Positions 30,797 through 62,463 of a DNA stretch of 64,000 bases are shown here, piece after piece. The DNA is from Prorocentrum cordatum (Eukaryota; Sar; Dinophyceae; Prorocentrales; Prorocentraceae). The stretch covers positions 1-64,000 of the forward strand of contig CAUYUJ010015766.1 of the NCBI GenBank assembly GCA_963575745.1. The letters run 5' to 3'. The notes under the pieces were generated by a model. The model was not told the DNA's origin and did no database searches. It saw only the letters and a list, made by a program, of their open reading frames with translations. Positions within the stretch are counted from its first letter, which is position 1, and each line of letters starts with the position of its first letter. The position numbers were made by a program, and so were the translations under genes.

Positions 30797-30947
30797 CTAG
30801 CTCCACCCCGCGCCGGAATTTCTCTAGCTCATCGATGCCGAAGAGCTCTACGAGGTACTAGCTCCACCCCGCGCCGGAATTCCTCTAGCTCATCGATGCC
30901 GAAGACCTCTACGAGGTATTACTTGCTAGGGAAAGCTCTACGAGTTA
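30797..30947 (-). mobile_element. stack of three nested 5' tips
   Basis: Reading from right to left: a class B tip (30919-30947, 29 bp), a class A tip (30858-30918, 61 bp) and a class A tip (30797-30857, 61 bp). The 61-bp lengths repeat exactly. Confidence 0.8.
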
Positions 30948-34532: not shown

Positions 34533-35059
34533 TTCCCGGAGGGCTCGCTGAGAGCTTCAAGATTAGAAGTCAGACGGTGGTGGTGCCCCCAGGAGCTCTC
34601 CATAGTTCCCCGCAAAAACTCCGGCGAGCCGGCAACGTGTCCAGGCGAGCTTCCGGCAAGCTTGCACGCGTGCCCGCACTCTTGCAGGCACGCATGGAAG
34701 CGATTCTGGCAGCGCTTCAGCAGCGCTGCAGGGGGCCCCCCCAGAGCTCTCGAGGAAAGGTTTCCCGTCCCCGAGGGTCTCTTCGCTCTCCGGGTTTTGG
34801 ACGCTACCAAGTTCCCGGAGAGCTCGCTGAGAGCTACAGGGTTTAAGATTAGAAATCGGACGGTGGTGTTGCCCGCCAGGAGCTCTTGCACGGCGGTCCA
34901 CGCTCCCCGGAGCAACTCGCCTGGCCCGGCAACGGGTCCGCGAGAGGTTCTGGCAAGCTTCCACGCATGCCTGCACGCGCGGAGGCACGTGTGGAAGCGT
35001 TTCTGGCAGCGCTTCGGTAGCGCTGCAGGGGAGCTTACCTGAGCTCTCGAGAAAAGATT
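34533..35059 (+). mobile_element. two class C1 elements (plus)
   Basis: The first runs 34533-34811 and ends ctaccaag. The second starts at once with TTCCCGGAGAGC and runs to about 35059. They are head to tail and opposite in direction to the copies left of 34176. Confidence 0.75.
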
Positions 35060-35174
35060 TTCCTGGAGAGCTCGCTGAGAGCTAAGGGTTAAGATTCCTC
35101 GTGGAGCTCTTCGGTATACCTCGTAGAGCTCTTCGGCAACGAGCTAGAGGAATTCCGGCGCGGGGTGGAGCTAG

Positions 35175-35752
35175 TACCTCGTAGAGCTCTTCGAAGCTGA
35201 GCTAAGAGGAATTCGGGCGCAGGGTGGAGCTAGTTGGCCGACCGCGCATGAAGAGATAATGTGTTAACTTTGGGTCGAGTTTCTAATGTTTCTGCAATAA
35301 GAAAAAATCGTTTTGAGAACGGGTATTTTCCTCACGTGTAGTAGGTTATGCCGCGACTGCCAGTTAAATTCTCAGGTCCGTAGCTGCAATATTACTATCA
35401 AAACACTTGCTGGAACCGACGGCCGTTTCGAGTCATCTTGACGCGCGTTAACGGTTTCTGTACTTATCTCGGCATATAGGACAGCTGCAGAGCTGATGCT
35501 TACAAAAACCAATTGTGAATCATGAGGCGCGTTCATATGTTCGATCTACAGCTCTGAACTCGGTCTGCTGCTTGAGCTGGGTCCGCAAACTTATTTGTAT
35601 TCTTCGAGTCATTTTGACGAGTGTTGTCCGTTTTCTCTACTGAACTCGCGATCTTGAACAAAAAATCTCAATGTGTAGTGGGCAGCGCCGCGCAAGAAAG
35701 CTCTACGAGGCTCCCGGTGGTAACCTGGTTGACGGTTTACCGCCGGCTCACA
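35175..35752 (+). mobile_element. A2-type element with satellite patch
   Basis: An A2-like 5' part fuses at about 35420 to class B satellite (about 35426-35650) and then to an A2-like 3' end with hairpin arm CCGGTGGTAA and terminus GGCTCACA. A chimera, inserted in the class A hot spot at CTAG^TT. Confidence 0.65.
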
Positions 35753-36052
35753 TTAGCCCACCCGGCCGAGGCGGACAATGTGACAACTTTTGGGTGGTTT
35801 TGCGATTTTTTGAAAAATATTTGACCATTTATTTTGAGAAAGCAGATTTTTCGCACCTGTAGACAACTATGAGGGCCTCAGCGTCTTAATATGAGCTCTC
35901 TACATGCACTCTTACTATCAAAACACTTGGAGAAACCAACTTCATGTCGACATGCAAGAAAACATGTTTTCTCTTTTCTAAGAAATGCTTCCAGAAGCCC
36001 TCTCGTTTGATACTGAGCACTCTTACGCGTGTTAGGAGCTCTACGAGGTTTC

Positions 36053-36076
36053 GGCTCAAGTCCCCCTCGGCTCAAG
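36053..36076 (+). other. two relict spliced-leader ends, copy 1
   Basis: GGCTCAAG, an 8-nt spacer TCCCCCTC, then GGCTCAAG again. The spacer resembles the bases after the core of a class B hairpin (CTACGAG then TCCCCC), suggesting the parent copy sat in such a hairpin and was trans-spliced at that AG. Confidence 0.7.
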
Positions 36077-36141
36077 GCGCGTGACATTTGATCCCCTCTG
36101 CCTGGGTAACCTCCAGTGGGATCGAGTGCGCGTCAGGGAGT

Positions 36142-36311
36142 CACACGTTTGTCGCCTAGAGTGATATTGCACTGCCATTCTTCTGACACGTTTGATCGCC
36201 TTGAGTGGTCTTCAATTGATTTGTTTCACACGTTTGTCGCCTAGAGTGATATTGCACTGCCATTCATTTGACACGTTTGATCGCCTTGAGTGGTCTTCAA
36301 TTGATTTGTTT
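36142..36311 (+). repeat. 85-bp tandem repeat, 5' region of retrocopy 1
   Basis: Two 85-bp units start cacacgtttgtcgcctagag at 36142 and 36227 and differ by only a few bases. They lie just upstream of the long frame. A similar phrase (acacgtttgatcgcc) occurs within each unit. Confidence 0.9.
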
Positions 36312-36349
36312 TGCTGGGGCTTCCGAGGCAGTCTCTGCAATCTTTCGCT

Positions 36350-37384
36350 ATGCCACACGTACGGAGTGCAAGTGCTCGCATCATGCGTCGGGCGCTGGCT
36401 GTTCAAAACGGATACTGTGTGCATTTACCTATTCGTTTGCCTCTGGATGGTTTGGTGCCACCTACGTGTCTCCCACCACCAGGGCTGGAGCGGGCGACTG
36501 CCGATTTGGTTCTAGATTATCTCTTCTTGCGCGATCCACCTGTTGTTAAACGCAGTTTGGAGGAGGAGGCTGACATTACGACTGTTTCGGAGAATCTTTC
36601 TTGCCGTATGCAGGCTTCTGAGTCGCTGGTTGATGTAGGTATTGGAGTGCAGGCTTCTGAATCGCTGGTTGATGTTGGAGTGCAGACGGTTGATACACGC
36701 TTGGCGGAGGAGGAGGTGGAGGCTACCGTTGCGACTATCTCGGAGACTCTTTCTTGTCGTTCCCTTGTTGACTCAGGAGTGCAGACGGATGATGCTTGCC
36801 TGAGTGTGCTACCCAAGGAGGAGGCGGCCGTTACGACACATTCTGAGATTTCTTGTGCGGACGTTGTGGACTTTCATTGTGAAGTCGGCTGTCAGACAGA
36901 GATTGTCGCTGGGATGGAGAGAGGAGCTTCAGGGGTTCTTCTTGGGAAAGTGACTGTGGAGGCTGAGGAGGAGCTGGAGGCACCCTCGAGAGCGGAGTTT
37001 TCTCCGAATGTGCAGGCTGTTCCTGATAGCCACGCCTTGTCAGGAGCGTCCCAGGGGTGTCTGAATCGTCCCGTCACGCTCAATGGGATATCGAATCCGG
37101 GTTCTGATGCGTTTGTCCGTGTCCGGATGGACGTCTCCAAGACTGTGCGTCAGTCGGAGGGGGAGTTCCAAGCTGTTCCTCCGGATTCCAAGCGTTCTGA
37201 TGGAAAAGGGGATGTACGAGGGCACCGCAAAGGCAGAGGCAAAGGCCAACGATATCATAGCAGTGCCAAGCCTGCTAAGAGCTCTAAAGGCGCCAACATC
37301 GTGTTTGACGAAGTGTATAGGTTCGGTAGGACGTTGACGGACTGTGAACGAAGGTGTAAATCTCAGGTTCGGCCTCTGTGGTAG
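36350..37384 (+). CDS. 344-residue protein of unknown function (copy 1)
   Basis: The frame starts at the first ATG (36350) and ends TAG at 37384. It has no signal peptide or membrane segment. Residues 35-60 are proline- and leucine-rich. Residues about 84-185 hold an imperfect repeat: ESLVDVG twice (91-97 and 104-110), then SLVDSGVQT (138-146), VQT at 111 and CQT at 181, separated by acidic EEE-rich linkers. The C-terminal third is basic (about 281-313, GRGKGQRYHSSAKPAKSSKG). This acidic-repeat plus basic-tail plan could suit an RNA-binding or Gag-like role, but there is no CCHC knuckle and I do not recognise a family. It differs from copy 2 at four residues that I can see. Confidence 0.7.
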   Translation: MPHVRSASARIMRRALAVQNGYCVHLPIRLPLDGLVPPTCLPPPGLERATADLVLDYLFLRDPPVVKRSLEEEADITTVSENLSCRMQASESLVDVGIGVQASESLVDVGVQTVDTRLAEEEVEATVATISETLSCRSLVDSGVQTDDACLSVLPKEEAAVTTHSEISCADVVDFHCEVGCQTEIVAGMERGASGVLLGKVTVEAEEELEAPSRAEFSPNVQAVPDSHALSGASQGCLNRPVTLNGISNPGSDAFVRVRMDVSKTVRQSEGEFQAVPPDSKRSDGKGDVRGHRKGRGKGQRYHSSAKPAKSSKGANIVFDEVYRFGRTLTDCERRCKSQVRPLW

Positions 37385-37663
37385 TTATTCGTTTTTCTTC
37401 GTGTGCTTCCTTTCATTCCGTACTTATTGTATTGGATTGTTGATTGTGATTGCATAGTCTCTTTTGTTTGTGCTCTAAGAATTCTGTGTGTGCATGTTCA
37501 GTTCTTGGCCAGGTCTCCTGGCTCTCACGTCGTAACATTATCCTTGCCTTATCAAAGCCAGCTTTGATGGGGGTGTTTGTAGCCGCGGAAGTGCCTGTGG
37601 TGGGTGTGGATACTGATTGGTCTGCGGTACTAATATATCTTCTCGCAGACCGACATCATTTTC
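37385..37663 (+). other. T-rich region between the two frames, copy 1
   Basis: Downstream of the long frame the DNA is T-rich. A frame with ATG at 37567 reads MGVFVAAEVPVVGVDTDWSA. A 22-nt GT-AG stretch (37627-37648, with tactaat) would join it in phase to the small frame that follows. Whether this is an intron is unproven, and an intron would be odd in a retroposed mRNA. Confidence 0.4.
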
Positions 37664-37798
37664 ATGGATGTTTATCTTGAGGCTTGGTGTCTGCCACCAA
37701 GCGCCACTGTTACAGTTACGGAACTATCTGCGGCGGAGCGCGTATGCGATGTGCTCACACAGGTAGTGCAGACCTTCTTTGATCATTCGCAGGGATAA
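37664..37798 (+). CDS. 44-residue frame with ELSAAER motif (copy 1)
   Basis: ATG at 37664 to TAA at 37796-37798. The peptide contains ATVTVTELSAAERVC, matching ATVTEAELSAAERLC in the separate insert at 62131-62463, so this short frame is likely part of a real protein family. It could extend upstream through the 37567 frame by a 22-nt intron. No function is recognised. Confidence 0.5.
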   Translation: MDVYLEAWCLPPSATVTVTELSAAERVCDVLTQVVQTFFDHSQG

Positions 37799-38007
37799 GT
37801 CACACATTGTTTCTTCTTTATCTGTGTTCTTGTTTAATCCATCAGCCCCGCTGTTCACTGACTCATTCGTTTTATCTTTGTGTGCTTTGCGTTTGATTGT
37901 GTCATTGCGGCATGCGTTTCTCTTTATTCCTTCAGCTTCGCTGTGTGGTATAAGAGCTGACTGCTTGCGTGATAAATAAGAGGGTCTGTTTCGCCTGATG
38001 CTTTGTT

Positions 38008-38036
38008 GGACCTGGCCTTAGTGGCCAAGACGGTCC
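38008..38036 (+). other. 3' stem-loop of retrocopy 1
   Basis: GGACC and GGTCC form an outer stem and TGGCC/GGCCA an inner one around ttagt, 12 nt before the poly(A). It may be the signal recognised by the retrotransposition machinery. Confidence 0.6.
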
Positions 38037-38859
38037 CAGCAAAGACGCAAAAAAGACCAGATTGACGGTTCACCGCCGGCGCCAGTCGATGAGCTAGAGG
38101 AATTCCGGCGCGGGGTGGAGCTAGTTGGCCCAGCCGGCCGAGGCGGAAAAACTATTCGTTCTGTGGAATTTCTCCCACATTGTATACTGTCAGGAAGCTC
38201 TACGAGTCCCCGGCGGTAAGAAAGGTTAGCGGTTTACCGCCGGCGCCCAGTTGGCCCAGCCGGCCGAGGCGGACAATGTGACAACTTTTGGGTGGTTTTG
38301 CAAAATTTGAAAGATTTTTGACAATTCATTTTGAGAAAGCAGATTTTTCGCACCTGTCGTGGGTTGAGACGCGTCTGCCAGTAAAATTTTCAGGTCCGTA
38401 GCTGTAGTATTACTATCGAAACACTTGGGGGAATCAACGTTGGATAAAAACAGAAAAAACATGATTTTTCGAGTTTCTCATGTCTTGCTCTAGACGCTTT
38501 CTTCATGCTTACCGATGAGCGCCGTGTCAGAAAAGAGCTCTACGAGGGCTCCGGCGGTAACCTGGTTGACGGTTTACCGCCAGTTTCCAGTTAGAAGCCG
38601 GACGGTGGTTGCGCCCGCCAGGAGCTTCTCGGCGGCGCTCCAGAATCTCCGCAGGGCTTTTTTTGAGCCGGCAGCGCGTCCGGGAGAGCTTCCCGCAAGC
38701 TTCCACGCGGGCCTGCACGCGTGCAGGCACGCGCGGAAGCGTTTCTGGCAGCGCTTCGGCAGCGCTGCAGGGGAGCTTCCCAGAGCTCTCGAGAAAAGAT
38801 TTTCCTGGAGAGCTCGCTGAGAGCTAAGGGGTTAAGATACCTCGTAGAGCTCTTCGGTA

Positions 38860-39839
38860 TACCTCGTAGAGCTCTTCGGCAACGATGAGCTAGAGGAATT
38901 CCGGCGCGGGGTGGAGCTAGTACCTCGTAGAGCTCTTCGAAGCTGAGCTAAGAGGAATTCGGGCGCAGGGTGGAGCTAGTTGGCCGACCGCGCATTAAGA
39001 GATAATGTGTTAACTTTGGGTAGAGTTTCTAATGTTTCTGCAATATTTAAAAATTCGTTTTGAGAACGGGTATTTTTCTCACGTGTAGTAGGTTATGCCG
39101 CGACTGCCAGTTAAATTCTCATGTCCGTAGCTGCAATATTTCTATCACAACACTTGCTGGAACCGACGGCCGTTTCGAGTCATCTTGACGCGCGTTAACG
39201 GTTTCTGTACTTATCTCGGCATATAGGACAGCTGCAGAGCTGATTCTTACAGAAACCAATTGTGAATCATGAGGCGCGTTCATATGTTCGATCTACAGCT
39301 CTGAACTCGGTCTGCTACTTGAGCTGGGTCCGCAAACTTATTTGTATTCTTCGAGTCATTTCGACGAGTGTTGTCCGTTTTCTCTATTGAACTCGCGATA
39401 TCTTGAACAAAAAATCTCAATGTGTAGCGGGCAGCGCCGCGCAAGAAAGCTCTACGAGGCTCCCGGTGGTAACCTGGTTGACGGTTTACCGCCGGCTCGC
39501 ATTGGCCCACCCGGCCGAGGCGGACAATGTGACAACTTTTGGGTGGTTTTGCGATTTTTTGAAAGATATTTGACCATTTATTTTGAGAAAACAGATTTTT
39601 CGCACCTGTAGACAACTATGAGGGCCTCAGCGTCTTAATATGAGCTCTCTACATGCACTCTTACTATCAAAACACTTGGAGAAACCAACTTCATGTCGAC
39701 ATGAAAGAAAACATGTTTTCTCTTTTCTAAGAAATGCTTCCAGAAGCCCTCTCGTTTGATCCTGAGCACTCTTACGCGTGTTAGGAGCTCTACGAGGTTC
39801 CCGGCGGTGACCAGATTGACGGTTCACCGCCGGCGCCAG
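38860..39839 (+). mobile_element. class A1 element, intact hairpin (unit 2)
   Basis: The pieces 38860-38920 (61 bp) and 39502-39839 total 399 bp. The hairpin at about 39800-39833 is unoccupied, giving the empty-site version of the site filled in unit 1. Confidence 0.85.
38921..39501 (+). mobile_element. A2-type chimera (unit 2)
   Basis: Counterpart of 35175-35752: A2 front, satellite patch, A2-like end with hairpin arm CCGGTGGTAA and terminus GGCTCGCA. Confidence 0.65.
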
Positions 39840-40305
39840 TCGATGAGCTAGAGGAATTCCGGCGCGGGGTGGAGCTAGTTGGCCCAGCCGGCCGAGGCGG
39901 AAAAACTGTTCGTTCTGTGGAATTTCTCCCACATTGTATACTGTCAGGAAGCTCTACGAGTCCCCCGGCGGTAAGAAAGGTTAGCGGTTTACCGCCGGCG
40001 CCCAGTTGGCCCAGCCGGCCGAGGCGGACAATGTGACAACTTTTGTGTGGTTTTGCAAAATTTGAAAGATATTTTACAATTCATTTTGAGAAAGCAGATT
40101 TTTCGCACCTGTAGTGGGTTGAGACGCGTCTGCCAGTAAATTTTTCAGGTCCGTAGCTGTAGTATTACTATCGAAACACTTGGGGAATCAACGTTGGATA
40201 AAAACAGAAAAACATGATTTTTCGAGTTTCTCAGGTCTTGCTCTAGACGCTTTCTTCATGCTTACCGATGAGCGCCGTGTCAGACAAGAGCTCTACGAGG
40301 GCTCC

Positions 40306-40329
40306 GGCTCAAGAAAATCTCGGCTCAAG
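40306..40329 (+). other. two relict spliced-leader ends, copy 2
   Basis: GGCTCAAG (40306-40313), spacer AAAATCTC, GGCTCAAG (40322-40329). The spacer resembles aaaaatctcg of the class B L block, where it follows AG (ggcaag). Confidence 0.65.
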
Positions 40330-40394
40330 GCGCGTGACATTTGATCCCCTCTGCCTGGGTAACCTCCAGTGGGATCGAGTGCGCGTCAGGGAGT

Positions 40395-40564
40395 CACACG
40401 TTTGTCGCCTAGAGTGATATTGCACTGCCATTCTTCTGACACGTTTGATCGCCTTGAGTGGTCTTCAATTGATTTGTTTCACACGTTTGTCGCCTAGAGT
40501 GATATTGCACTGCCATTCATTTGACACGTTTGATCGCCTTGAGTGGTCTTCAATTGATTTGTTT
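40395..40564 (+). repeat. 85-bp tandem repeat of retrocopy 2
   Basis: Units start at 40395 and 40480, the same as in copy 1. Confidence 0.9.
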
Positions 40565-40602
40565 TGCTGGGGCTTCCGAGGCAGTCTCTGCAATCTTTCG
40601 CT

Positions 40603-41637
40603 ATGCCACACGTACGGAGTGCAAGTGCTCGCATCATGCGTCGGGCGCTGGCTGTTCAAAACGGATACTGTGTGCATTTACCTATTCGTTTGCCTCTGGA
40701 TGGTTTGGTGCCACCTACGTGTCTCCCACCACCAGGGCTGGAGCGGGCGACTGCCGATTTGGTTCTAGATTATCTCTTCTTGCGCGATCCACCTGTTGTT
40801 AAACGCAGTTTGGAGGAGGAGGCTGACATTACGACTGTTTCGGAGAATCTTTCTTGCCGTATGCAGGCTTCTGAGTCGCTGGTTGATGTAGGTATTGGAG
40901 TGCAGGCTTCTGAATCGCTGGTTGATGTTGGAGTGCAGACGGTTGATACACGCTTGGCGGAGGAGGAGGTGGAGGCTACCGTTGCGACTATCTCGGAGAC
41001 TCTTTCTTGTCGTTCCCTTGTTGACTCAGGAGTGCAGACGGATGATGCTTGCCTGACTGTGCTACCCAAGGAGGAGGCGGCCGTTACGACACATTCTGAG
41101 ATTTCTTGTGCGGATGTTGTGGACTTTCATTGTGAAGTCGGCTGTCAGACAGAGATTGTCGTTGGGATGGAGGGAGGAGCTTCAGGAGTTCTTCTTGGGA
41201 AAGTGACTGTGGAGGCTGAGGAGGAGCTGGAGGCACCCTCGAGAGCGGAGTTTTCTCCGAATGTGCAGGCTGATCCTGATAGCCACGCCTTGTCAGGAGC
41301 GTCCCAGGGGTGTCTGAATCGTCCCGTCACGCTCAATGGGATATCGAATCCGGGTTCTGATGCGTTTGTCCGTGTCCGGATGGACGTCTCCAAGACTGTG
41401 CGTCAGTCGGAGGGGGAGTTCCAAGCTGTTCCTCCGGATTCCAAGCGTTCTGATGGAAAAGGGGATGTACGAGGGCACCGCAAAGGCAGAGGCAAAGGCC
41501 AACGATATCATAGCAGTGCCAAGCCTGCTAAGAGCTCTAAAGGCGCCAACATCGTGTTTGACGAAGTGTATAGGTTCGGTAGGACGTTGACGGACTGTGA
41601 ACGAAGGTGTAAATCTCAGGTTCGGCCTCTGTGGTAG
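40603..41637 (+). CDS. 344-residue protein of unknown function (copy 2)
   Basis: An intact frame of the same length as copy 1. Visible differences are S/T at about residue 152, A/V at 187, R/G at 191 and V/D at 224. Retention of an open 345-codon frame in both copies fits recent insertion, selection, or both. Confidence 0.7.
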   Translation: MPHVRSASARIMRRALAVQNGYCVHLPIRLPLDGLVPPTCLPPPGLERATADLVLDYLFLRDPPVVKRSLEEEADITTVSENLSCRMQASESLVDVGIGVQASESLVDVGVQTVDTRLAEEEVEATVATISETLSCRSLVDSGVQTDDACLTVLPKEEAAVTTHSEISCADVVDFHCEVGCQTEIVVGMEGGASGVLLGKVTVEAEEELEAPSRAEFSPNVQADPDSHALSGASQGCLNRPVTLNGISNPGSDAFVRVRMDVSKTVRQSEGEFQAVPPDSKRSDGKGDVRGHRKGRGKGQRYHSSAKPAKSSKGANIVFDEVYRFGRTLTDCERRCKSQVRPLW

Positions 41638-41916
41638 TTATTCGTTTTTCTTCGTGTGCTTCCTTTCATTCCGAACTTATTGTATTGGATTGTTGATTGT
41701 GATTGCATAGTCTCTTTTGTTTGTGCTCTAAGAATTCTGTGTGTGCATGTTCAGTTCTTGGCCAGGTCTCCTGGCTCTCACGTCGTAACATTATCCTTGC
41801 CTTATCAAAGCCAGCTTTGATGGGGGTGTTTGTAGCCGCGGAAGTGCCTGTGGTGGGTGTGGATACTGATTGGTCTGCGGTACTAATATATCTTCTCGCA
41901 GACCGACATCATTTTC

Positions 41917-42051
41917 ATGGATGTGTATCTTGAGGCTTGGTGTCTGCCACCAAGCGCCACTGTTACAGTTACGGAACTATCTGCGGCGGAGCGCGTATGC
42001 GATGTGCTCACACAGGTAGTGCAGACCTTCTTTGATCATTCGCAGGGATAA
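41917..42051 (+). CDS. 44-residue frame with ELSAAER motif (copy 2)
   Basis: Same as 37664-37798 in copy 1, including the upstream 22-nt GT-AG stretch (41880-41901). Confidence 0.5.
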   Translation: MDVYLEAWCLPPSATVTVTELSAAERVCDVLTQVVQTFFDHSQG

Positions 42052-42260
42052 GTCACACATTGTTTCTTCTTTATCTGTGTTCTTGTTTAATCCATCAGCC
42101 CCGCTGTTCACTGACTCATTCGTTTTATCTTTGTGTGCTTTGCGTTTGTTTGTGTCATTGCGGCATGCGTTTCTCTTTATTCCTTCAGCTTCGCTGTGTG
42201 GTATAAGAGCTGACTGCTTGCGTGATAAATAAGAGGCTCTGTTTCGCCTGATACTTTGTT

Positions 42261-42289
42261 GGACCTGGCCTTAGTGGCCAAGACGGTCC
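42261..42289 (+). other. 3' stem-loop of retrocopy 2
   Basis: Identical to the copy 1 stem-loop and similarly placed before the poly(A). Confidence 0.6.
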
Positions 42290-42557
42290 CAGCAAAGACG
42301 CAAAAAAAAAACCTGGTTGACGGTTTACCGCCGGTTTCCAGTTAGAAGCCGGACGGTGGTTGCGCCCGCCAGGAGCTTCTCGGCGGCGCTCCAGAATCTC
42401 CGCAGGGACTTTTTTGAGCCCGCAGCGCGTCCGGGAGAGCTTCCCGCAAGCTTCCACGCGGGCCTGCGCGCGTGCAGGCACGCACGGAAGCGTTTCTGGC
42501 AGCGCTTCGGCGGCGCTGCAGGGGGGCTGTCCAGATCTCTCCAGGAAAGACTTCCTG

Positions 42558-42959
42558 TGACTCGTGGAGCTTCCCTAAGCTAGTTGCTGGAAACTTAAGA
42601 GTAATACCTCGTAGAGCTCTTCGGCATCGATGAGCTAGAGGAATTCCGGCGCAGGGTGGAGCTAGTAACTCGTAGAGCCTCCCTTCAGCAAGTTATTGCT
42701 GGATGCTTAAGAGTAATACCTCGTAGAGCTCTTCGGCATCAATAAGCTAGAGGAATTCCGGCGCGGGGTGTAGCTAGTAACTCGTAGAGCTTCCCTTAGC
42801 AAGTTATAACTCGCAGAGCTTCCCTTAGCAAGTCATTGCTGGAAGCTTAAGAGTAATACCTCGTAGAGCTCTTCGGCATCGATGAGTGACTCGTAGAGCT
42901 TCCCTAAGCTAGTTGCTGGAAGCTTAAGAGTAACTCGTAGAGCTTCCCTTAGCAAGTTA
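42558..42959 (+). mobile_element. stack of nine nested 5' tips (right arm)
   Basis: Tips begin at 42558 (B), 42605 (A), 42666 (B), 42717 (A), 42778 (B), 42807 (B), 42857 (A), 42887 (B) and 42931 (B). Each is cut by the next at a purine^T. The remainders follow in reverse order downstream. All nine start with TAACTCG, TGACTCG or TACCTCG (one with a substitution just after). Confidence 0.95.
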
Positions 42960-44440
42960 TTCCCGGATAGCTCCTTGGAGAGCTGAGGGTTTCAGATAAG
43001 AAGCCGGAGGTGGGTGGTGAGGGAGACACGCCCACCTCCGCCTGTCCACGATTCTCGCAGCAGGTTGCCGGAACCGGCAGCGGGTCTGGGAGCGTGGCTT
43101 CCTAGCGTTTCCCAATGCGCGTGGCTCCAGGGTGCGCAAAGCGCTTCGGCAGAGCTTCGGAAGAGCTTCGGCAGTTCTTCCAGGCTCCTAGGCAAATCTT
43201 CCTCGTGCGCTTTGCAGGGCCCCACGCATCGTAAACGGCGCCCCTGCAGGCGTCTCCTGCGAGGTTTCCAGCGTCCCGCGCATCGTTTCAAGCGGCACGG
43301 CAGAGGTCCCCGTGCGGCGTGTTGGAGCGCTTCGCGCTCCGCGCCTGGCTTCGCTATCCGGGTATTGGACGCTTACAAGTGGAAGCTTAAGAGTAATTCC
43401 GGGAAGCTGGAGAGCTAGTTGGAAAGAAAAATCTCGATGGACCTTTTGCTGACTTTTGGTCGGTTGAGAATTTTGTTTTCAAAATTTGAACATTCGTTAG
43501 AGCTCTAATATTTTTCCCATGATATTCGATCTCATTCCCGCTCGCCATCTTGATCTCAGCTCGATCGAATAACTTTAAAAGCCAAAAAGCAGGCAGGCGG
43601 GAACAGCCGCTTCGAGTGATCTTGATATGCGCTGTCGGTTTTCTCAAGATAACTCGAGCTTCAGGACAACTACAGAGCTGGTCAGCACAGCTAATGCATT
43701 CAGAATGATCAGGCGCGTTCGCCTGTTGAATCGAGAGGTCTGAACTCGGTCTGCTAGCCGAGCTAGGGTCGCAAACCTATTCGTATTATTCGAGTCATTG
43801 TAGCAGACGCTCTCGGTTTTTTTTACTTAACTCGATCTGTAGGGCAGCCACAAAGCTGATAATCACAGAAATCGATTAAGAATTTCCAGGCGCGTTCGTC
43901 TGTTGAATGACGAGCTCTGAACTCGGCCTGCTCCCCGAGCTAGGTTTGCGAACCTATTGGTATTGTTCGAGTCATCTTGAGAAGTGCTCTCGGTTTTCTG
44001 TACTTAAATCGTGCTGGGGAGGGCTACAGTGCTGCTGGTCACAGGAATCGATTTCGAGACATCAGGCGCGTCCGTTCGTCGAACCGAGAGCTCGGAACTC
44101 GGTCTGCTGCTCGAACGAGATCCGCGAAACTGTTGTAGTATTCGAGTCATCCTGAGAGGTACTCTCGGTTTTCTTCACTAGAGCTGGTAATCACTGGAAT
44201 CGATCCGCAGACATCAGACGCGTCCGCCTGTCGCATCCAGAGGTCTGAACTCGGTTTCATACTCGAGCTCGATTGGAAAACTGTTCGTTTGTTTTGTTAG
44301 AGTCATCTTGAGAGGTCTGAAATCGCTTGGGCTGAAAAACTAGTCGTTCTTTGAAATTCGTTTCCACATTATATATTGTCAGGAAGCTCTACGAGTCCCC
44401 CGGCGGTAAGAAAGGTTGACGGTTTACCGCCGGCGCCCAG
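42931..44440 (+). mobile_element. nest level 9: class B
   Basis: Pieces 42931-42959 and 43380-44440 (about 1090 bp) flank a class C2 element. About 4 bp (ttgc) of the tip palindrome are missing at the junction. Confidence 0.8.
42960..43379 (+). mobile_element. class C2 element, complete, innermost
   Basis: 420 bp from TTCCCGGATAGC to GCTATCCGGG and the tail gacgcttacaag. Inserted in the tip palindrome of the level 9 class B. Confidence 0.85.
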
Positions 44441-47051
44441 TAATTCCGGCGCGCTGGAGAGCTAGTTGGCAAGAAAAATCTCGACGGAACTTTTGCTGAC
44501 TTTTGGTCGGTTGAAAATTTGTTCTCGAAATTTGACCATTCGTTAGAGCTCTAGTATTTTTTTCCGTGATATTCGATCTTATTCCCGCTCGCCATCTTGA
44601 TCCCAGCTCGATCGGGTAACTTTGAAGGCCAAAAAGCACTCTGGCGGGATCGGCCGTTCCGAGTCATCTTGATATGCGTTCTCGGTATTGTATACTCAAA
44701 TCGATCTGTAGGAGAACTACAGAGCTGGTAAGCACAGCTATCGCACTCAGAATCATCAGGCGCGTTCGCCTGTTCCAGTCAGAGGTCTGAACTCGGTCTG
44801 TTAGCCGAGCTAGGTCCGCAAACCTATTCGTATTATTCGAGTCAACTTGATACGCGTGGTTGGTATTTTCTACTTAACTCGAGCTGTAGGGCAGCTACTG
44901 TGCTGGTAAGCACACCTATCGCACTCAGAATCATCAGGCGCGTTCGCCTGTTGAATCCATAGGTCTGAACTCAGTCTGTTAGCCGAGCTAGGTCCGCAAA
45001 CCTATTCGTATTATTGGAGTGAACTTGATACGCGTGGTGGGTATTCCCTCCTAAATTCGAGCTGCAGGGCAGCTAGAGAGCTGGTAAGCACATTCATCGC
45101 ATTCAGAATTATCAGGCGCGTTCGCCTCCAGAATCGAGAGGTCTGAAATTGGTCTGCTAGCCGAGCCAGGTCCGCAAACCTATTCGTATTATCCGATGCA
45201 TCTTGACAGACGCTCTCGGTTTTCTCTACTTTACTCGAGCTGTAGGGCAGCTACAGAGCCTACAGTCACAGAAATCGATTGAAAATTATCGTGCGCGTTT
45301 GTCTGTTGTATCGAGAGCTCTGAACTCGGCCTGTTGCCTGAGCTAGATTCGCGAAACTATTCGTATTGTCCGAATCATCGTGAAAAGTGCTCTCAATTTT
45401 CTGCACTCAACTCGTGCTGGGGGATGGCTACAGTGCTGCGGGTCATAGAAATCGATTTGCACACATCAGCGCGTTCGTTGCTCGATTCGAGAGCTCAGAA
45501 CTTGGTCTGCTGCTCGAAACAGGTCCGCGAAACTATTGTATTATTCGAGTCATCCTGAGAGATGCTGTTGGTTTTCTGCACTTAACTCGGTCTGTAGAGG
45601 GGCTGCAGGGCTGGTAATCACATGCGTCGATTCGCAGACATCAGACGCGTCCGCCTGTCGCATTGAGAGGTCTGAACTCGGTCTGATACTCGAACTGGAT
45701 TGCGAAACTCTTTTTTTTTTAGGAGTCATCTTGAGAGGTCTGAAATCGCTTGGGCTGAAAACTAGTCGTTCTGGATTTTTTTCCACACTATATACTGTCA
45801 GGAAGCTCTACGAGTCCCCCGGCGGTAACAAAGGTTGACGGTTTACCGCCGGCGCCCAGTATTTTTTCCCGTGATATTCGATCTTATTCCCGCTCGCCAT
45901 CTTGATCTCAGCTCGATCGGGTAACTTTACTCGCGGGATCGGCCGCGAGTCATCAGCTGACGGTTTTATGAACATAACTCGAGCTCTAGGGCAGCTACAG
46001 AGCTGGTAAGCACAGCTAATTGCAGAATGATCAGGCGCGTTCGCCTGTTGAACCCAGAGGTCTGAACTCGGTCTGTGAGCCGAGCTAGGTCCGCAAACCT
46101 GTTCGTATTATTCGAGTCATCTTGACAGAAACTCTCGGTTTTCTGTACTTAACTCGAGCTGTAAGACAGCTACAGAGCTGATATTTACAGAAACTGATTC
46201 AGAATCGCCAGTTGCGTTTGTCTGTCGAATCCAGAGCTCTAAACTCGGTCTTCTGCTCGATCTAGAATCACGAAATTATTCGTATTGGTCGAGTCATCTT
46301 GAGAAGTGCTGTCGGTTTTCTTCACTCAACTTGCGCTGAGAGGGGGCTACAGTGCTGGTTGTGATATGAATCGATTTAAAGAGATCATGCGCGTCCGCCT
46401 TTCGAATCCATAGCTCGGAACTCGGTCTGCTGCCCGAACTAGGTTCGCGGAACTATTGTATTGTTCGAGTCATCCTGAGAGATACTGTCGGTTTTCTGCA
46501 CTGACCTCGGGCTGTAGGGGGGCTGCGGGGCTGGTAATGACAGAAGTCGATTCGCAGACATCAGACGCGTCCGCTTGTCGCATTCAGAGGTCAAAAAATA
46601 TTCACTATGAGTCAGAATGTTGGTAGGTGCTGTCGGTTTTCTCAACTTAAGTCGAGCTTGGAAGCTCTACGAGTTCCCCGGCGGTAACCAAGGTTGACGG
46701 TTTACCGCCGGCGCCCAGTTAGAGGAATTCCGGCGCGGGGTGGAGCTAGTTGGCCCAGCCGGCCGAGGCGGACAATGTGGCAACTTTTGGGTGGTTTTGC
46801 GAAAATTTGAAAGATATTTGACCATTTATTTTGAAAAAGCAGATTTTTAGGCCGAGCATTGGCATATGAACTCCTCTCTTACAGCAGCTCCGGGAACTGA
46901 GCGAATATGAACATCGAAAAAATCGAATTTTAAGATTTTCGAAAAGTCTCCATTTTTTGATTCTGTGTCGATTCTCTCCATTCTTACTAGTGAGGGGAGC
47001 TCTACGAGGTTCCCGGCGGTGACCAGGTTGACGGTTCACCGCCGGCGCCAG

Positions 47052-47449
47052 TACCTCGTAGAGCTCTTCGGCATCGATGAGCTAGAGAAATTCCGGCGCG
47101 GGGTGGAGCTAGTTCGCCCAGCCGTCCGAGGCGGACAATGTGGCAACTTTTGGGTGGTTTTGCGAAAATTTGAAAGATATTCGACCATTCATTTTGAAAA
47201 AGCAGATTTTTACGCCGAGCATTGGCATGTAAAATCTTCTCTCACAGCAGCTCAGCTCTCTCGATGCATTTTTGCATGAGTTGACTTCCGGGAACTGAGC
47301 AAATATGAACATCGAAAACATCGAATTTCAAGATTTTCGAAAAATTTACATTTTTTGATTCTGTGTCGATTCTATGCACTCTTACTAGTGAGAGGAGCTC
47401 TACGAGGTTCCCGGCGGTGACCAGATTGACGGTTCACCGCCGGCGCCAG
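47052..47449 (+). mobile_element. class A1b element, complete
   Basis: 398 bp. It directly follows the end of level 7 in the same target site of level 6, so two insertions used one site. The plus-strand frame ELFGIDELEKFRRG is the recurrent class A frame. Confidence 0.9.
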
Positions 47450-50400
47450 TTCCAGAGCGCTTGAGAGCTAGTTGGCAAGAAAAATCTCGACGGACTTTTT
47501 GGTGACGTTTGGTCGGTTGAAAATTTTGTTCTTAAAATTTGACCATTCGTTGGAGCTCTAGTATTTTTTCCTATGATATTCGATCTTATTCCCGTTCGCC
47601 ATCTTGATCTCAGCTCGATCGGGTACCTTTTACTGCCAAAAAGCGTCCCGGCGGGAACGACCGTTTCGAGTCATCTTGTCACGTATTGTCGGTATTTTGT
47701 ACTTAACTCGAGCTGTAGAGCAGCCACAGAGCTGGTAAGCACACCTATCGCATTCAGAATTATCAGGCGCGTTCGCCTGTCAAATCCAGAGGTCTGAACT
47801 CGGTCTGCTAGCCGAGCCAGGTCCGCAAACCTATTCGTATTATTCGAGTCATCTTGACAGACGCTCTCGGTTTTCTGTAATTAACTCGAGCTGTAGGGCA
47901 GCTACAGGGCTCATTGTCATAGACATCGATGGGGAATCATCAGTCGCGTTTGTCTATTGAACCGAGAGCTCTGAACTCGGCCTGCTGTCTGAGCTAGGTT
48001 CGCGAAGCTATTCGTATAACGCGTGTTATCTTAAGAAGTGCTCTCAATTTTCTGCACTTAACTCGTGCTGGGGGAGGGCTACAGTGCTGCGGTTCACAGA
48101 TATCGATTTTCACACCTCAGGCGCGTCTGTCGGTCGATTCTAGAGCCCTGAACTCGGTCTCCTGCTCGAACTCGGTTCGCAAAACTATTCCAATATTCGA
48201 GTCGATACTGTCGGTTTTCTGCGCAGAAACTCGGGCTGTAGGGGGGCTGCAGGGCTGGGAATCACATGAGTGTTTGTAGTCATCAGACGCGCCCGCCTGT
48301 CGCATTCAGAGGTCTGAACTCGGTTTGATACTCGAAATGGGTTGCGAAACTGTTTGTTTTTTGTTAGAGTCATCTTGAGAGGTCTGAAATCGCTTGGGCT
48401 GAAAAAATATTCTTTCTTTGATTTTTTTCACTATATATACTGTCAGGAAGCTCTACGAGTCCCCCGGCGGTAAGAAAGGTTGACGGTTTACCGCCGGCGC
48501 TTAGTTGCTGGAAGCTTAAGAGTAATTCCGGAGCGCTGGAGAGCTAGTTGGCAAGGAAAATCTCGACTGACCTTTTGGTGACTTTTGGTCGGTTGAAAAT
48601 TTTGTTCTCGAAATTCAACCATTCGTTAGAGCTCTAGTATTTTTTCCCGTGATATTCGATCTTATTCCCGCTTGCCATCTTGATCTCAGCTCGATCGGGT
48701 ACCTTTTACTGCCAAAAAGCGTCCCGGCGGGAACGGCCGTTTCGAGTCATCTTGTCACGCGTTGTCGGTATTTTGTACTTAACTCGAGCTGTAGAGCAGC
48801 CACAGAGCTGGTAAGCAACCTAGCGCATTCAGAATGATCAGGCGCGTTCGCCTGTCAAATCCAGAGGTCTGAACTCGGTCTGCTAGCCGAGCTAGGTCTG
48901 CATACCTATTCGTATTATTCGAGTCATCTTCACAGACGCTCTCGGTTTTCTGTACTTAACTCGAGCTGTAGGGCAGCTACAGGGCTCATTGTCATAGACA
49001 TTGATGGGGAATCATCAGTTGCGTTCGTCCATTGAACCGAGAGCTCTGAACACGGCCTGCTGTCCGAGCTAGGTTCGCGAAGCTATTCGTATTCTGCATA
49101 TTATCTTGAGAAGTGCTCTCAATTTTCTGTACTCAACTCGTGCTGGGGGAGGGCTACAGTGCTTCGGTTCACAGATATCGATTTCCACACCTCAGGCGCG
49201 TCTGTCGGTCGATTCGAGAGCTCCGAACTCGGTCTGCTGCTCGAACTAGTTTCGTGAAACTATTCTAGTATTCGAGTCGATACTGTCGGTTTTCTGCACA
49301 GAAACTCGGGCTGTAGGGGGGCTGCAGGGCTGGGAATCACATGAGTGTTTGCAGACATGAGAGGCGCCCGCCTGTCGAATTCAGAGGTCTGAACTCGGTT
49401 TGATACTCGAAATGGGTTGCGAAACTGTTTGTTTTTTGTTAGAGTCATCTTGAGAGGTCTGAAATCGCTTGGGCTGAAAAAACTAGTCGTTCTTTGAGTT
49501 TTTTCCACACTATATACTGTCAGGAAGCTCTACGAGTCCCCCGGCGGTAAGAAAGGTTGACGGTTTACCGCCGGCGCCCAGTTGGCCAACCCGGCCCGGG
49601 CGGACAATGTGGTGACCGGCGGTCGGTTTTTCGAAGATGGCGAGAGATTTTGAAATTCATTTTGCAAATTTGAATTTTTATTATATGCAGTGAATCATGG
49701 CGCTTTCGATGGTGAAATTCCCAGGGTGCTAGCTGCATTATTTCGATTGAAAGACTAGGGGGCACCACCATTCTGTACGACAAAAAAGAATGTCTCTATG
49801 TTTGGAGCTAGTATGCAGAAGCTTTTTTCTGCTGTTATCTCGGAACCAATCTGGTCTATCCAGAGCTCTACGAGGGTCCCGGCGGTAACCTGGTTGACGG
49901 TTTACCGCTGGTTCCCAGTTCCGGAGCGCTGGAGAGCTAGTTGGCAAGAAACATCTCGACGGACCTTTTGATGACTTTTGGTCGGTTGAAAATTTTGTTC
50001 TCGAAATTCAACAATTCGTTTGAGCTCTAGTTTTTTTTCCCGTGATATTCGATCTTATTCCCGCTTGCCATCTTGATCTCAGCTCGATCGGGTACCTTTT
50101 ACTGCCAAAAAGCGTCCCGGCGGGATCGGCTGTTTCGAGTCATCTTGATACCCGTTGTCGGTATTTTCTACTTAACTCGAGCTGTAGGGCAGCTACAGTG
50201 CTGGTAAGCACACCTATCGCACTCAGAATTATCAGGCGCGTTCGCCTGTTGAATCCATAGGTCTGAACTCGGTCTGCTAGCCGAGCTAGGTCCGCAAACC
50301 TATTCGTATTATTCGAGTCAACTTGGTACGCGCTGTCGGTATTTTCTACTTAACTCGAGCTGTAGGGCAGCTACAGTGCTGGTAAGCACACCTGTCGCAC

Positions 50401-52692
50401 TCAGAATTTTCAGGCGCGTTCGCCTGTTGAATCCATAGGTCTGAACTCGGTCTGCTAGCCGAGCTAGGTCCGCAAACCTATTCGTATTATTCGAGTCAAC
50501 TTGATACGTGTGGTGGGTATTTTGTACTTAATTCGAGCTGCAGGGCAGCTACAGAGCTGGTAAGCACATCCATCGCATTCAGAATCATCAGGCGCGTTCG
50601 CCTCTTGACTTCCGAGGTCTGAACTCGGTCTGCTAGCCGAGCTAGGTCCGCAAATCTATTCGTATTATTCGAGTCATCTTGACAAGCGCTCTCGGTTTTC
50701 TGTACTTAACTCGAGCTGTAGGGCAGCTACAGAGCCTATAGTCACAGAAATCGATTGGGAATTATCGGGCGCGTTTGTCTGTTGTATCGAGAGCTCTGAA
50801 CTCGGCCTGCTGCCCGAGCTAGGTTCGCGAAACTATTCGTATTGTCCGAATCATCGTGAAAAGTGCTCTCAATTTTCTGCGCTCAATTCGTGCTGGGGAG
50901 GGCTACAGTGCTGTGGGTCATAGAAATCGATTTGCACACATCAGGCGCGTTCGTTGGTCGATTCGAGCTCAGAACTTGGTCTGCTGCTCGAAACAGGTCC
51001 GCGAAACTATTGTATTATTCGAGTCATCCTGAGAGATGCTGTCGGTTTTCTGCACTTAACTCGGGCTGTAGGGGGGCTGCAGGGCTGAAAATCACATGAG
51101 TCGATTCGCAGACATCAGACGCGTCCGCCTGTCGCATTGAGAGGTCTGAACTCGGTCTGATACTCGAACTGGGTTGCGAAACTGTTTGTTTTTTTGTTAG
51201 AGTCATCTTGAGAGGTCTGAAATCGCTTGGGCTGAAAACTAGTCGTTCTCTGGATTTTTCCCACACTATATACTGTCAGGAAGCTCTACGAGTCCCCCGG
51301 CGGTAAGAAAGGTTGACGGTTTACCGCCGGCGCCCAGTTGGTCGACCCGGCCAGAAAGGACAAAGTGTTAACTTTTGGGTGGTTTTGAGATTTTGTGAAA
51401 GATATTTGACAATTCATTTTGAGAAAGCAGATTTTTACTCCGAGCATTGGTATCTTAACTTCGTTCTCTTAGCAGCTGAGCTCTCTAGGCGCACTTCTAC
51501 TATCGAAACACTTGGAGCAACCATCTTCATGTCGACACGAAAAAAATATTGGTTTTTCTTTTTTTTTGAGAAATGTTTCGAGAAGCTCTCTCTTTCGGTT
51601 CTGAGCACTCTTACACGTGAAATGAGCTCTACGAGGTTCCCGGCGGTGACCAGGTTGACGGTTCACCGCCGGCGCCAGTTCCGAAGCGCTGGAGAGCTAG
51701 TTGGCTCGAAAAAAAAAGAACTGAACTTTTCACAACTTTTGGTCGGTTGAAAAATTTGTTCTCGAAATTCAACAATTCGTTTGTGCTCTAGTATTTTTTC
51801 CCGTGATATTCGATCTTATTCCCGCTCGTCATCTTGATCTCAGCTCGATCGGGTATCTTTTACTGCCAAAAAGCACACTGGCGGGATCAGCCGTTTCGAG
51901 TCATCTTGATACGCGTTGTCGGTATTTTGTACTTAACTCGAGCTGTAGGACAGCTACAGAGCTGGTAAGCACAGCTAATCGATGTAGAATGATTAGGTGC
52001 GTTCGCCTGTTGAATCCAGAGCTCTGAACTCGGTTTGCTAGCCGAGCTAGGTCCGCAAACCTATTCGTATTATTCAAGTCATCTTGATTCGCACTGTCGG
52101 TATTCTGAACTTAACTCGAGATATAGGACAGCTACAGAGCTGGTAAGCACGCCTCATCGACTCAGAATCATCAGGCGCGTTCGGCTGTTCCAACCAGAGG
52201 TCTGAACTCGGTCTGCTAGCCGAGCCAGGTCCGCAAACCTATTCGTATTATTCGAATCATCTTGATAGGCGCTCTCGGTTTCCTGTACTTAACTCGAGCT
52301 ATAGGACAGCTACAGGGCTGATAGTTACAGAAACCGATTCAGAATCATCAGTCGCGTTTGTCTGTCGAATCCAGAGCTCTGAACTCGGTCTGCTGCGCGA
52401 TCCAGAATCACGAAACTGTTCGTATTCTTCCAGTCATCTTGAGAGCTACTGTCGGCGTTCTGCACTTAACTCGGGCTGTAGGGAGGCTGCAGGGCGGGTA
52501 ATCACAGGAATCGATTCGGAGACATCAGACGCGTCCGTCTGTCGCATTCAGAGGTCTGAACTCGGTCTGATACTCGAGTTGGGCTGAAAAACTATTCGTT
52601 CTCTGCAATTTTTTTCGACATTATATGTTGTCAGGAAGCTCTACGAGTCCCCCGGCGGTAACAAAGGTTGACGGTTTACCGCCGGCGCCCAG

Positions 52693-52736
52693 TTCCCGAG
52701 GGTCTCTTCGCTCTTTTGGGTTTGGACGCTCCCAAG
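52693..52736 (+). mobile_element. last piece of the class C1 host
   Basis: ttcccgagggtctcttcg to cgctcccaag completes the element that began at 38802. The three pieces add up to about 296 bp. Confidence 0.85.
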
Positions 52737-53133
52737 TACCTCGTAGAGCTCTTCGGCATCGATGAGCTAGAGGAATTCCGGCGCGGGGGAGCTAGTTGGC
52801 CCAGCCGGCCGAGGCGGACAATATGATAACTTCTGGGTGGTTTTGCGAAAATTTGAAAGATATTTAACCATTTATTTTGAGAAAGCAGATTTTACGCTGA
52901 GCATTGGCGTATGAACTTCTCTCTCTCAGCAGCTGAGCTCTCTCGATGCATTTTTGCACGAGTTGACTTCCAGGAACTGAGCGAATATGAACATCGAAAA
53001 AAAATCGAATTTCAAGATTTTCGAAAAATCTTTATTTTTCCACTCTGTGTCGATTCTCTGCACTCATACCAGTGAGAGGAGCTCTACGAGGTTCCCGGCG
53101 GTGACGAGGTTGACGGTTCACCGCCGGCGCCAG
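52737..53133 (+). mobile_element. class A1b element, complete
   Basis: 397 bp, inserted right after the class C1 terminus CAAG. It contains a short palindrome (gatgcatttttgcacg region) typical of A1b. A further 8 bp (53134-53141) of unclear origin follow. Confidence 0.85.
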
Positions 53134-57704: not shown

Positions 57705-57882
57705 TACCTCGTAGAGCAATTCGTCGTCGATGAGCTAGTGACTCGTAGAGCTTCACTTAGCAAGCTATTGCTGGAAGCTTAAGAGTAATTCCGGCGCGCT
57801 GGAGAGCTAGTTGGCAAGAAGTGAGAGGAGCTCTACGAGGTTCCCGGCGGTGACCAGGTTGACGGTTCATCGCCGGCGCCAG
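57705..57882 (+). mobile_element. class A tip, class B tip and A1 tail
   Basis: The A tip (57705-57738, cut at CTAG) and B tip with palindrome (57739-57820) fuse at ggcaagaa/gtgagagg to an A1 3' end with hairpin, ending GCGCCAG. Confidence 0.7.
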
Positions 57883-58863
57883 TAATTCCGGCGCGCCGAA
57901 GAGCTAGTTGGCAAGACAAATCTCGACGAAAGTTTTGGTGACTTTTGCTCGGTTGAAAATTTTGCTCTCGAAATTCAACAATTCGTTTGAGCTCTAGTAT
58001 TTTTCCCTATGATATTTGATCTTATTCCCGCTCGCCATCTTGATCTCAGCTCGATCGGGTGAATATTACTATCGAAAAGCACTGTGGCGGGATTGGCCGT
58101 TTCGAGTCATCTTGATACGCGCTGACGGTTTTCTGAACATAACTCGAGCTTTAGGACAGCTACAAAGCTGGTAGGCACAGCTTTTCGGCGCGTTCGCCTG
58201 TTCAATCCAGAGGTCTGAACCCGGTCCGTTAGCCAAGCTAGGTCCGCAAACCTATTCGTATTATTCGAGTCATCTTGACAGGGGCTCTTGGTTTTCTGTA
58301 CTCAACTCGAGCTGTAGGACAGCTACAGAGCTGATATTTACAGAAACCGATTCGGAATCATTAGTTGCGTTTGTCTGTCGAATTCAGAGCTCTGAACTCG
58401 GTCTGCTGCTGGATCTAGAATCGCGAAACTGTTTGTATTGGTCGAGTCATCTTGAGAAGGGCTCTCGGTTTTCTTCACTCAACTCGCGCTGAGGGTGGCT
58501 ACAGTGCTGGTGGTCACAGGAATCGATTTGAAGACATCAGGCGCGTTCGCCTGCCAAATCCGGAGCTCAGAACTCGTTCTGCTGCCCGAATTAGGTCTGC
58601 GAAACTACTGCATTGTTCGAGTCATCCTGATGTGCTGTCGGCTTGCTGCACTTAACTCGGGCTTTAGGGGGGCTGTAGGGCTGGTAATGACAGGATCGAT
58701 TCGCAGAGATCAGACGCGTCCGCCTGTCGCAGAGGTAAAAACATATTCACTATAAGTCGGAATGTTGGTAGGTGCTGTCGGTTTCCTCAACTTAAGTCGA
58801 GCTAGGAAGCTCTACGAGTCTCCCGGCGGTAACCAAGGTTGACGGTTTACCGCCGGCGCCCAG
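57883..58863 (+). mobile_element. class B2 element, remainder
   Basis: Resumes at taattccggcg; L block, about four monomers and a B2 hairpin ending CGCCCAG at 58863. Confidence 0.75.
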
Positions 58864-62130: not shown

Positions 62131-62406
62131 GTTATCTGTTTCTATATCAAACAGAACAGGACAAACATCAAATACATCAGAGGATGTTGGGATGGTGGAG
62201 TGAGCAGTGAGGGTGCTGCAGGAGGTCACTGGATCGAAGTTGCTCCAGAGAATGGCCCGTGGACACTCGTGAGCTCAGAAGCCTACATGTTTGATGTAGG
62301 TGCCACCGTGACGGAGGCAGAATTATCTGCTGCCGAGCGCCTGTGCACAGGTGTGGAGCACATTGTTAAAGAAATTTCCTCTGCAAAGCGGAGGAGGCGG
62401 ATTTAA
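62131..62406 (+). pseudogene. coding remnant with ELSAAER motif
   Basis: The frame is open through the entire insert to TAA (62404-62406), 91 codons, without an upstream ATG; a GTG lies at 62200. It reads GGHWIEVAPENGPWTLV, then ATVTEAELSAAERLC, and ends SAKRRRRI, a basic, nuclear-localisation-like tail. The ATVT..ELSAAER.C motif is shared with the 44-residue frame of the retrocopies. The lack of an initiator suggests a truncated or exon-only copy. Function unknown. Confidence 0.5.
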
Positions 62407-62463
62407 CTGGCTCTAGCCCTTAGGCTTGGGCGCACGCGCCCTGTGTAGCCTGACCAAACACCA
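62131..62463 (+). mobile_element. 333-bp insert with 6-bp target duplication
   Basis: It interrupts a satellite monomer and is flanked by AACTCG on both sides (62125-62130 and 62464-62469), where uninterrupted monomers have one copy. This differs from the no-duplication rule of classes A-C. Near its 3' end AGGCT/AGCCT and GGGCGC/GCGCCC can form a hairpin (about 62420-62452). There is no poly(A). Confidence 0.7.

Follow-up and report, generated by a model that had tools for sequence, protein, structure and literature searches.

How do the 5' tips of nine mobile elements come to lie side by side within about 400 bp, with the rest of each element following downstream in the opposite order? The question is raised by the first 64 kb of contig CAUYUJ010015766.1 (assembly GCA_963575745.1; this whole 64,000-nucleotide stretch is called the window below) of Prorocentrum cordatum, a dinoflagellate and free-living bloom alga. 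Much of the window is built from non-coding mobile elements. Class A elements (~398 bp) start with ACCTCGTAGAGCTC; their 3' part carries the inverse of that repeat, a hairpin and then CGCCAGT. Class B elements (1.04–1.57 kb in rejoined or whole copies) start with AACTCGTAGAGCTTCC or GACTCG, contain ~178-bp tandem units and end with CGCCCAGT, while class C joins a class A-like tip to a distinct body. Starts are RACTCG or ACCTCG and ends mostly CAGT, and elements begin after a T. Class D and D' elements start with TCCCGGAGAGC or TCCCGGATAGC and end with CAAGT, class D having TCCC at its start. A script scan of the window returned 83 3' ends (18 of D type) and 73 candidate 5' starts; one extra 3'-end candidate without a recognisable terminus was excluded from the 83.

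Two bracketed nests in the window

The first nest occupies 42559–52737 on the plus strand (Table 1). Its nine tips (42559–42960, 402 bp in total) follow the order B, A, B, A/C, B, B, A, B, B, and each is closed by its own remainder in exact reverse order. The first remainder starts at 43381 and the last one ends at 52693, after which the outer host continues (52694–52737). An initial annotation had described this arrangement, and every segment of the interval could indeed be assigned. The junction counts that it gave were also reproduced: seven of the nine are base-exact, one shows a base change (the last base of tip 7 is T where the class has C) and one lacks 4 bp (TGCT, before the remainder of tip 9). 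Tips had been said to end at a purine; the cut is the same, shifted by one ambiguous base, but the base to its left is T. Rejoined elements measure 402 and 363 bp (A), 398 bp (C) and 1061, 1470, 1106, 1105, 1463 and 1090 bp (B). Uninterrupted A-type copies (n = 5) are 397–401 bp; the 398-bp element, annotated as A, is placed in class C. The nest is ten levels deep including the innermost element, inside a class D host, or eleven counting a tipless body: ten remainders stand against nine tips, the body at 45861–46719 having none. A deletion joining two adjacent, near-identical tips would best account for the loss of its tip, and B8 may be a hybrid with that lost tip. Label permutation reproduces the order of the nest with a probability of 6.6e–5.

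A second nest, on the minus strand from 30946 to 14293, adds 11 junctions, all matching in position. The elements cut are B, A, A (outer) and then B, A, B, A, B, C, C, D', which form an eight-level core whose order arises by label permutation with a probability of 3.0e–4. Three A elements and one C rejoin to 395–398 bp, the same as uninterrupted copies. At the D' junction the last tip base is T where relatives have C, as at tip 7 of the first nest. The nest is untidy in places: the A element starting at 27698 holds another, degenerate element, the C element at 27416 is fused to D' sequence, the B element at 30946 received another insertion with a loss of ~2 nt, and a tipless B piece lies between 29731 and 27771. 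Once restored, the sites at the junctions of both nests show no target-site duplication. Restored elements align colinearly with their class, as had been claimed (74–96% identity among 11 B rows), and together with the bracket order in two nests this supports the annotated reading that an outer element is older than an inner one.

Table 1. Positions of the nested elements and associated features in the window
Feature	Position	Strand	Remarks
B1 5' tip, outermost nested element	42559–42605	+	remainder 51680–52693
A2 5' tip	42606–42666	+	remainder 51339–51679; 402 bp rejoined
B3 5' tip	42667–42717	+	remainder 49920–51338; 1470 bp rejoined
C4 5' tip (class A-like tip, class C body)	42718–42778	+	remainder 49583–49919; 398 bp rejoined
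B5 5' tip	42779–42807	+	remainder 48506–49582; 1106 bp rejoined
B6 5' tip	42808–42857	+	remainder 47451–48505; 1105 bp rejoined
A7 5' tip	42858–42887	+	remainder 46720–47052; single-base difference at junction
Tip assigned to B8	42888–42931	+	remainder 44442–45860
B9 5' tip	42932–42960	+	remainder 43381–44441; TGCT (4 bp) missing at junction
Innermost element, class D' (TCCCGGATAGC ... TTACAAGT)	42961–43380	+	
B-class body without first ~162 nt, without tip	45861–46719	+	
Complete uninterrupted class A element	47053–47450	+	adjoins A7 head to tail
Outer host, class D, 3' end	52694–52737	+	host interrupted at 42558
Outer tips, nest 2	30796–30946	-	B 30946–30918, A 30917–30857, A 30856–30796
Eight further 5' parts, nest 2	27041–27770	-	B, A, B, A, B, C, C, D'
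Core remainders, nest 2, reverse order	18405–23744	-	starts 23744, 23632, 23461, 23125, 22094, 21358, 20369, 19449
Outer-tip remainders, nest 2	14293–17503	-	starts 17503, 17165, 16830; last interrupted by B 16775–15398
Complete 399-bp A/C-type element amid core remainders	21757–21359	-	
Nest 2 outer pairs (start to remainder start)	30946 to 16830, 30917 to 17165, 30856 to 17503	-	
Nest 2 core pairs	27770 to 19449, 27698 to 20369, 27637 to 21358, 27587 to 22094	-	
Nest 2 core pairs, inner	27526 to 23125, 27477 to 23461, 27416 to 23632, 27329 to 23744	-	last pair D'

When class-and-site labels from the entire window were matched exactly and without crossings, with A and C equated, 25 nested pairs resulted (mean 16.3, maximum 20 in 300 label shuffles). 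This method was used instead of an earlier stack matcher, which was brittle on the minus strand and had given 12 top matches (mean 3.2, maximum 9 in 2000 shuffles) and 18 'any' matches (shuffle maximum 19). A few tips, for example those cut at 53866 and 57740, lack an identified remainder. Six elements abut exactly head to tail (47053, 52738, 55072 and 34813 on the plus strand; 25472 and 21757 on the minus strand); in two of these, C then A and D then A, the partners clearly differ in class, so read-through dimers cannot account for all six.

Orientation and target sites

Inserted elements nearly always share the orientation of their hosts. In the window, 56 of the 83 3' ends run into a recognisable host element, 55 of them in the same orientation (51 of 52 without four segmentally duplicated ends); pooled with eight other contigs, the count is 152 of 156 mapped insertions. 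Below 33.6 kb there are 41 3' ends on the minus and 2 on the plus strand, and in the right part of the window 38 on the plus and 2 on the minus. The flip at ~33600 lies near a change of sign in GC and AT skew (~34–36 kb).

Insertions are concentrated near host 5' ends. Without the four duplicated ends, 42 of the 52 mapped insertions of the window lie in A, B and C hosts beyond the 5' boundary, and 31 of the 42 are within the first 75 nt (9.3% expected, P-value 1.5e–23, with the share of T^N positions as expectation, events taken as independent and positions as equal); when weak alignments are dropped, 27 of 37 do. A T precedes 68 of the 73 candidate 5' starts, or 64 of 66 once four duplicates and three false starts are removed, the latter being reversed ends of other copies, none preceded by T. 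Immediately after the cut, 39 of 79 ends have T and 13 have C. Insertions most often use A 61|62, B 50|51 and B 47|48; repeated use is also seen at the 5' boundary and at the 5'-hairpin tip (A 22|23, B 26|27, B 29|30). Exactly at the boundary lie 13 of 145 A/B/C events; among the other 132, A62/A63 took 40 and B48/B51 took 33. Of the 17 AGT^ positions of class B, three tip sites took seven insertions and the other 14 took one. Insertions at the motif AAT^TCCGG number 5 in class A (site 40) and 22 in class B (site 51). We also considered whether B 50|51, which takes the most insertions in its class, mimics a D 5' end. B 51–78 does resemble that end (0 of 2000 shuffles); the corresponding stretch of A shows no such resemblance (744 of 2000), and the idea is therefore not relied on.

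We searched the organism's own genome (4,128,499,153 bases in 21,875 contigs) and sampled 14 stretches of 10 kb (140 kb) from eight other contigs, picked via query matches. The query spans a nest junction, so that some junctions were selected and are kept in the counts, and the scan covered A/B/C-type ends. Within this sample, 104 of 133 A/B/C-type 3' ends could be mapped, 101 in the same orientation as the host and 3 in the opposite one. The first 75 nt received 71 of 89 A/B/C insertions, or 72 of 90 once the remainder of the own contig is added (9.5% expected, P-value 2e–56), T precedes 60 of 64 5' starts, and nested pairs number 16 (mean 8.0, maximum 12 in 500 shuffles). The same sites are used at the 3.4-kb loci L002–L008, retrieved with a query that also spans a nest junction; these were set aside in favour of the 10-kb stretches, which partly cover the same places. 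In 13 of the 14 stretches all 3' ends lie on a single strand, and in the remaining one the ratio is 9 to 2. At 64–124 kb of the own contig there are just two such ends (12,600 of 60,000 bases are N), and nine 5-kb stretches picked by contig number contain none (7,743 of 45,000 bases are N, one stretch being N throughout). This distribution suggests that the elements form islands of single orientation. The exact 3'-end pattern gave no matches in a viral contig collection or in a genome contig collection.

Element ends, related systems and other features of the window

Classes A, B and C carry asymmetric terminal inverted repeats of 14, 15 and 14 bp (0 of 500 shuffles each). Class D has one of 10 bp (3 of 500), and that of D' is not convincing (66 of 500). 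The 3' arm lies 42–45 nt inside the end in A–C and 18 nt in D. A 3' hairpin with a ~10-bp stem gives folding z-scores of –3.8 (A), –1.9 (B) and –2.0 (C); cuts starting inside the hairpin gave no signal (B 0.8, C –0.7), and no hairpin was supported at the D' 3' end (z = 1.3). In class B, a 5' hairpin that includes the 5' repeat scores –5.05 (46 nt) and –2.25 (79 nt), and the short-loop B tip –0.5. Identity is highest at the ends: A and C agree at 91% over nt 1–66 and 77% over the last 58, with 56% and 41% in the body between, and B copies at 96% over the last 59 nt, 91% in the tip, 86% at nt 78–300 and 82% at nt 301–1000. Judged by this conservation, the stretch targeted by insertion is the elements' own putative transposition end. 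In a ~144-bp mini-element at 57740–57883 (+), a B tip is joined to the 3' end of class A, so one element can combine ends from two classes.

Structurally, the elements look like non-coding, non-autonomous Helitron2/HINE-like rolling-circle elements (HINE, Helentron-associated interspersed element), because they combine asymmetric repeats, a 3' hairpin, a T before the cut and no target duplication. Two other identities were rejected. Canonical Helitrons (Helitron1) start with 5'-TC, end with CTRR-3' and insert at A^T, whereas the ends here are RACTCG/ACCTCG...CAGT with T before the cut. A cut-and-paste DNA transposon or miniature inverted-repeat transposable element, which would have symmetric terminal inverted repeats and a target duplication, fits poorly with a 3' arm 42–45 nt inside the end in A–C and no target duplication.

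Non-autonomous Helitron2 elements (PMC3627910) share asymmetric repeats, a 3' hairpin, a 5' hairpin (class B here), insertion after T and, in most, the absence of a target duplication; their 3' arm lies ~20–30 nt from the end rather than 42–45 as in A–C, and their preferred target is TTTT^T/C rather than their own 5' end. HINE/DINE-1 elements (PMC4067079) likewise have subterminal inverted repeats, a 3' palindrome, an unchanged target site and, in some copies, tandem repeats (compare the ~178-bp units of class B); they show a TT preference but favour T-rich targets instead of element tips. For FoHeli of Fusarium oxysporum, PMC5148889 reports self-insertion, short repeated 5' ends and a 3' repeat 38–51 bp from the end. 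Self-insertion was therefore already known, from a single nested example and from composites that carry several 5' ends; recurrent sites and single-orientation nests of about ten levels are what differs here. Nested plant long terminal repeat retrotransposons also enter particular element parts non-randomly, but they are of another class and mechanism and prefer the 3' untranslated region (PMC6911290). The dinoflagellate introner elements outlined in PMC10666404 lie in introns and have inverted repeats with 3–5 nt direct repeats at both ends. In the literature searched, which covered few subscription papers, we found no account of recurrent same-orientation nesting into Helitron-like 5' ends, and the word Helitron does not occur in the main texts of PMC10666404 (the P. 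cordatum genome) and PMC11453091 (a dinoflagellate review). Nesting that recurs at the 5' end, keeps to one orientation and reaches at least ten levels was likewise not seen in these searches.

Several further features lie in the window. Two similar copies of a retroposed-looking unit (36048–38070 and 40303–42310, +) have a 357-amino-acid (aa) frame and an A-rich tail and are 94.6% identical over a 2.4-kb aligned block including flanks. They carry paired GGCTCAAG pieces, seen by eye only, which we take to resemble spliced-leader relics; the dinoflagellate spliced leader (DinoSL) 21-mer itself has no match allowing up to three mismatches. By eye, each unit lies inside a 3' hairpin, in its 5' arm; the hairpin belongs to a class A element in one case and to a class C element in the other, so the units look like separate insertions at corresponding positions. 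Segmental duplications link 34849–36050 with 38591–39799 and 38055–38555 with 39809–40308 (94–98% identical). Six short proteins filed as 'Pyramimonas sp.' (EukProt, P0019–P0024) match a translation that runs through a B end and the body of a class A element (37–85% identity), which may reflect contamination or sharing; by eye, P0019 continues from an A end straight into B 51, the arrangement found in the nests. A fragment at 62140–62450 (+) resembles the RNase H end of a retrotransposon. Eight of the 46 listed open reading frames of the window were searched against Pfam without a match, and Rfam (gathering threshold) and tRNA searches of the window returned none.

Origin of the nests

We propose, with a probability of roughly 0.6, that these are non-autonomous Helitron2/HINE-like elements that target the 5' ends of resident copies through an end-recognising Rep-type transposase. 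A newcomer inserts after a T without target duplication, strongly favouring the first ~75 nt of a resident copy. The target site being stranded, it would adopt the orientation of its host and leave a short tip on its left and the rest on its right; repeated rounds would build a bracketed nest and strand-coherent islands. The transposase, supplied in trans from autonomous Helitrons, would recognise and nick resident 5' ends, which would act as landing pads. The nesting, the shared orientation, the site preference and the conservation of the ends are observed directly; what we infer is rolling-circle transposition, the identity of the enzyme and that recognition of the end, beyond local sequence alone, causes the preference. 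An end-recognising enzyme would explain both why the targeted stretch coincides with the conserved end and why insertions occur at the 5' boundary itself. A source in trans may exist, since the genome contains at least 151 matches to PF14214 (Helitron_like_N), in open frames of up to 3573 aa and including a group with 1797-aa frames (scoring covered 150 of 1615 candidates, and all those listed lie above the cut-off); none of 14 control genomes has a match. The fuller picture, a self-homing rolling-circle system in which any resident 5' end would serve as a landing pad and a single founder would seed an orientation-locked, inward-growing island, falls somewhat short of an even chance.

Several observations weigh against the proposal. 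Among the PF14214 matches no Rep protein is tied to the termini of these elements, and the longest listed frame in the window has 357 aa. The class A 5' hairpin is weak (z = –1.5 and –2.0; –0.3 on folding a longer stretch) and that of D' is no better than shuffles (z = 0.0), and target sites are not significantly unpaired in folded single strands (B, P-value 0.16; A, P-value 0.06). T or C follows the cut in only 52 of 79 ends, 27 of the 83 3' ends cannot be mapped to any host class, and the nests show no age gradient, divergence failing to track depth. Finally, common motifs (CTAGT^TGG, AAT^TCCGG) could suffice without end recognition.

This last point is the core of a rival explanation that we consider unlikely, namely a plain preference for short motifs that happen to sit near the 5' end, with no recruitment. 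It accounts for the two regions that take most insertions (A62/A63 and B48/B51) and for the use of AAT^TCCGG in both classes, but not for AGT^, whose 14 further copies in the B body took a single insertion, nor for the differing sequences used at the 5'-hairpin tip (A 22|23; B 26|27 to 29|30) and at the 5' boundary. Scattered insertion with survival or recognition of just the tip insertions, the others decaying or recombining away, is improbable. Many body junctions may be too decayed to see, as the unmapped 3' ends would allow; however, the same few base positions recur, and a mid-element insertion would leave two long recognisable halves, which mapping should favour.

Transport of tip arrays as composites, with several 5' ends and one 3' end, has been proposed for FoHeli (PMC5148889). 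Both nests keep their remainders in reverse order, which a composite would not leave, so that this very improbable reading is contradicted for them; it could still hold for the orphan tips mentioned above. We give the slightest chance to tandem or segmental duplication, rolling-circle read-through or misassembly. A segmental duplication does lie nearby (34.8–42.5 kb, 94–98% identity) and head-to-tail neighbours exist, but neighbours differ in class, B elements are 74–96% alike and the same junction sites recur on eight other contigs.

The age of the nests cannot be read from divergence. The initial annotation expected divergence to rise from inner to outer levels, and this was not borne out: terminal branches of B elements, from outer to inner, are 0.069, 0.024, 0.026, 0.048, 0.072, 0.064 and 0.035 in the first nest and rise inward (0.008, 0.066, 0.098, 0.186) in the core of the second. 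As branch lengths do not rise outward, divergence mostly reflects different source copies and not time since insertion. B9, the innermost B element of the first nest, is 96% identical to the outermost B of the second core (starting at 27770), from which the three B elements inside that core differ by 15–23%. Should the shared 4% set a limit on how old both insertions are, the inner elements would have arrived with most of their differences, and, judging from this one pair, diverged copies may still have been mobilised at that time.

The nests offer a relative clock by position, independent of sequence divergence, which fails here. If the self-homing picture is true, each island would preserve a stratigraphy that can be read and, as a sink, might spare the remainder of the genome. 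To our knowledge, target choice by Helitron-like elements is poorly understood; a target that is precise to a few bases, recurrent and placed in the element's own end makes target choice and end recognition testable with one set of DNA substrates. The nests also point to a way in which strand-coherent islands, rich in repeats, could expand within the very large genomes of dinoflagellates.

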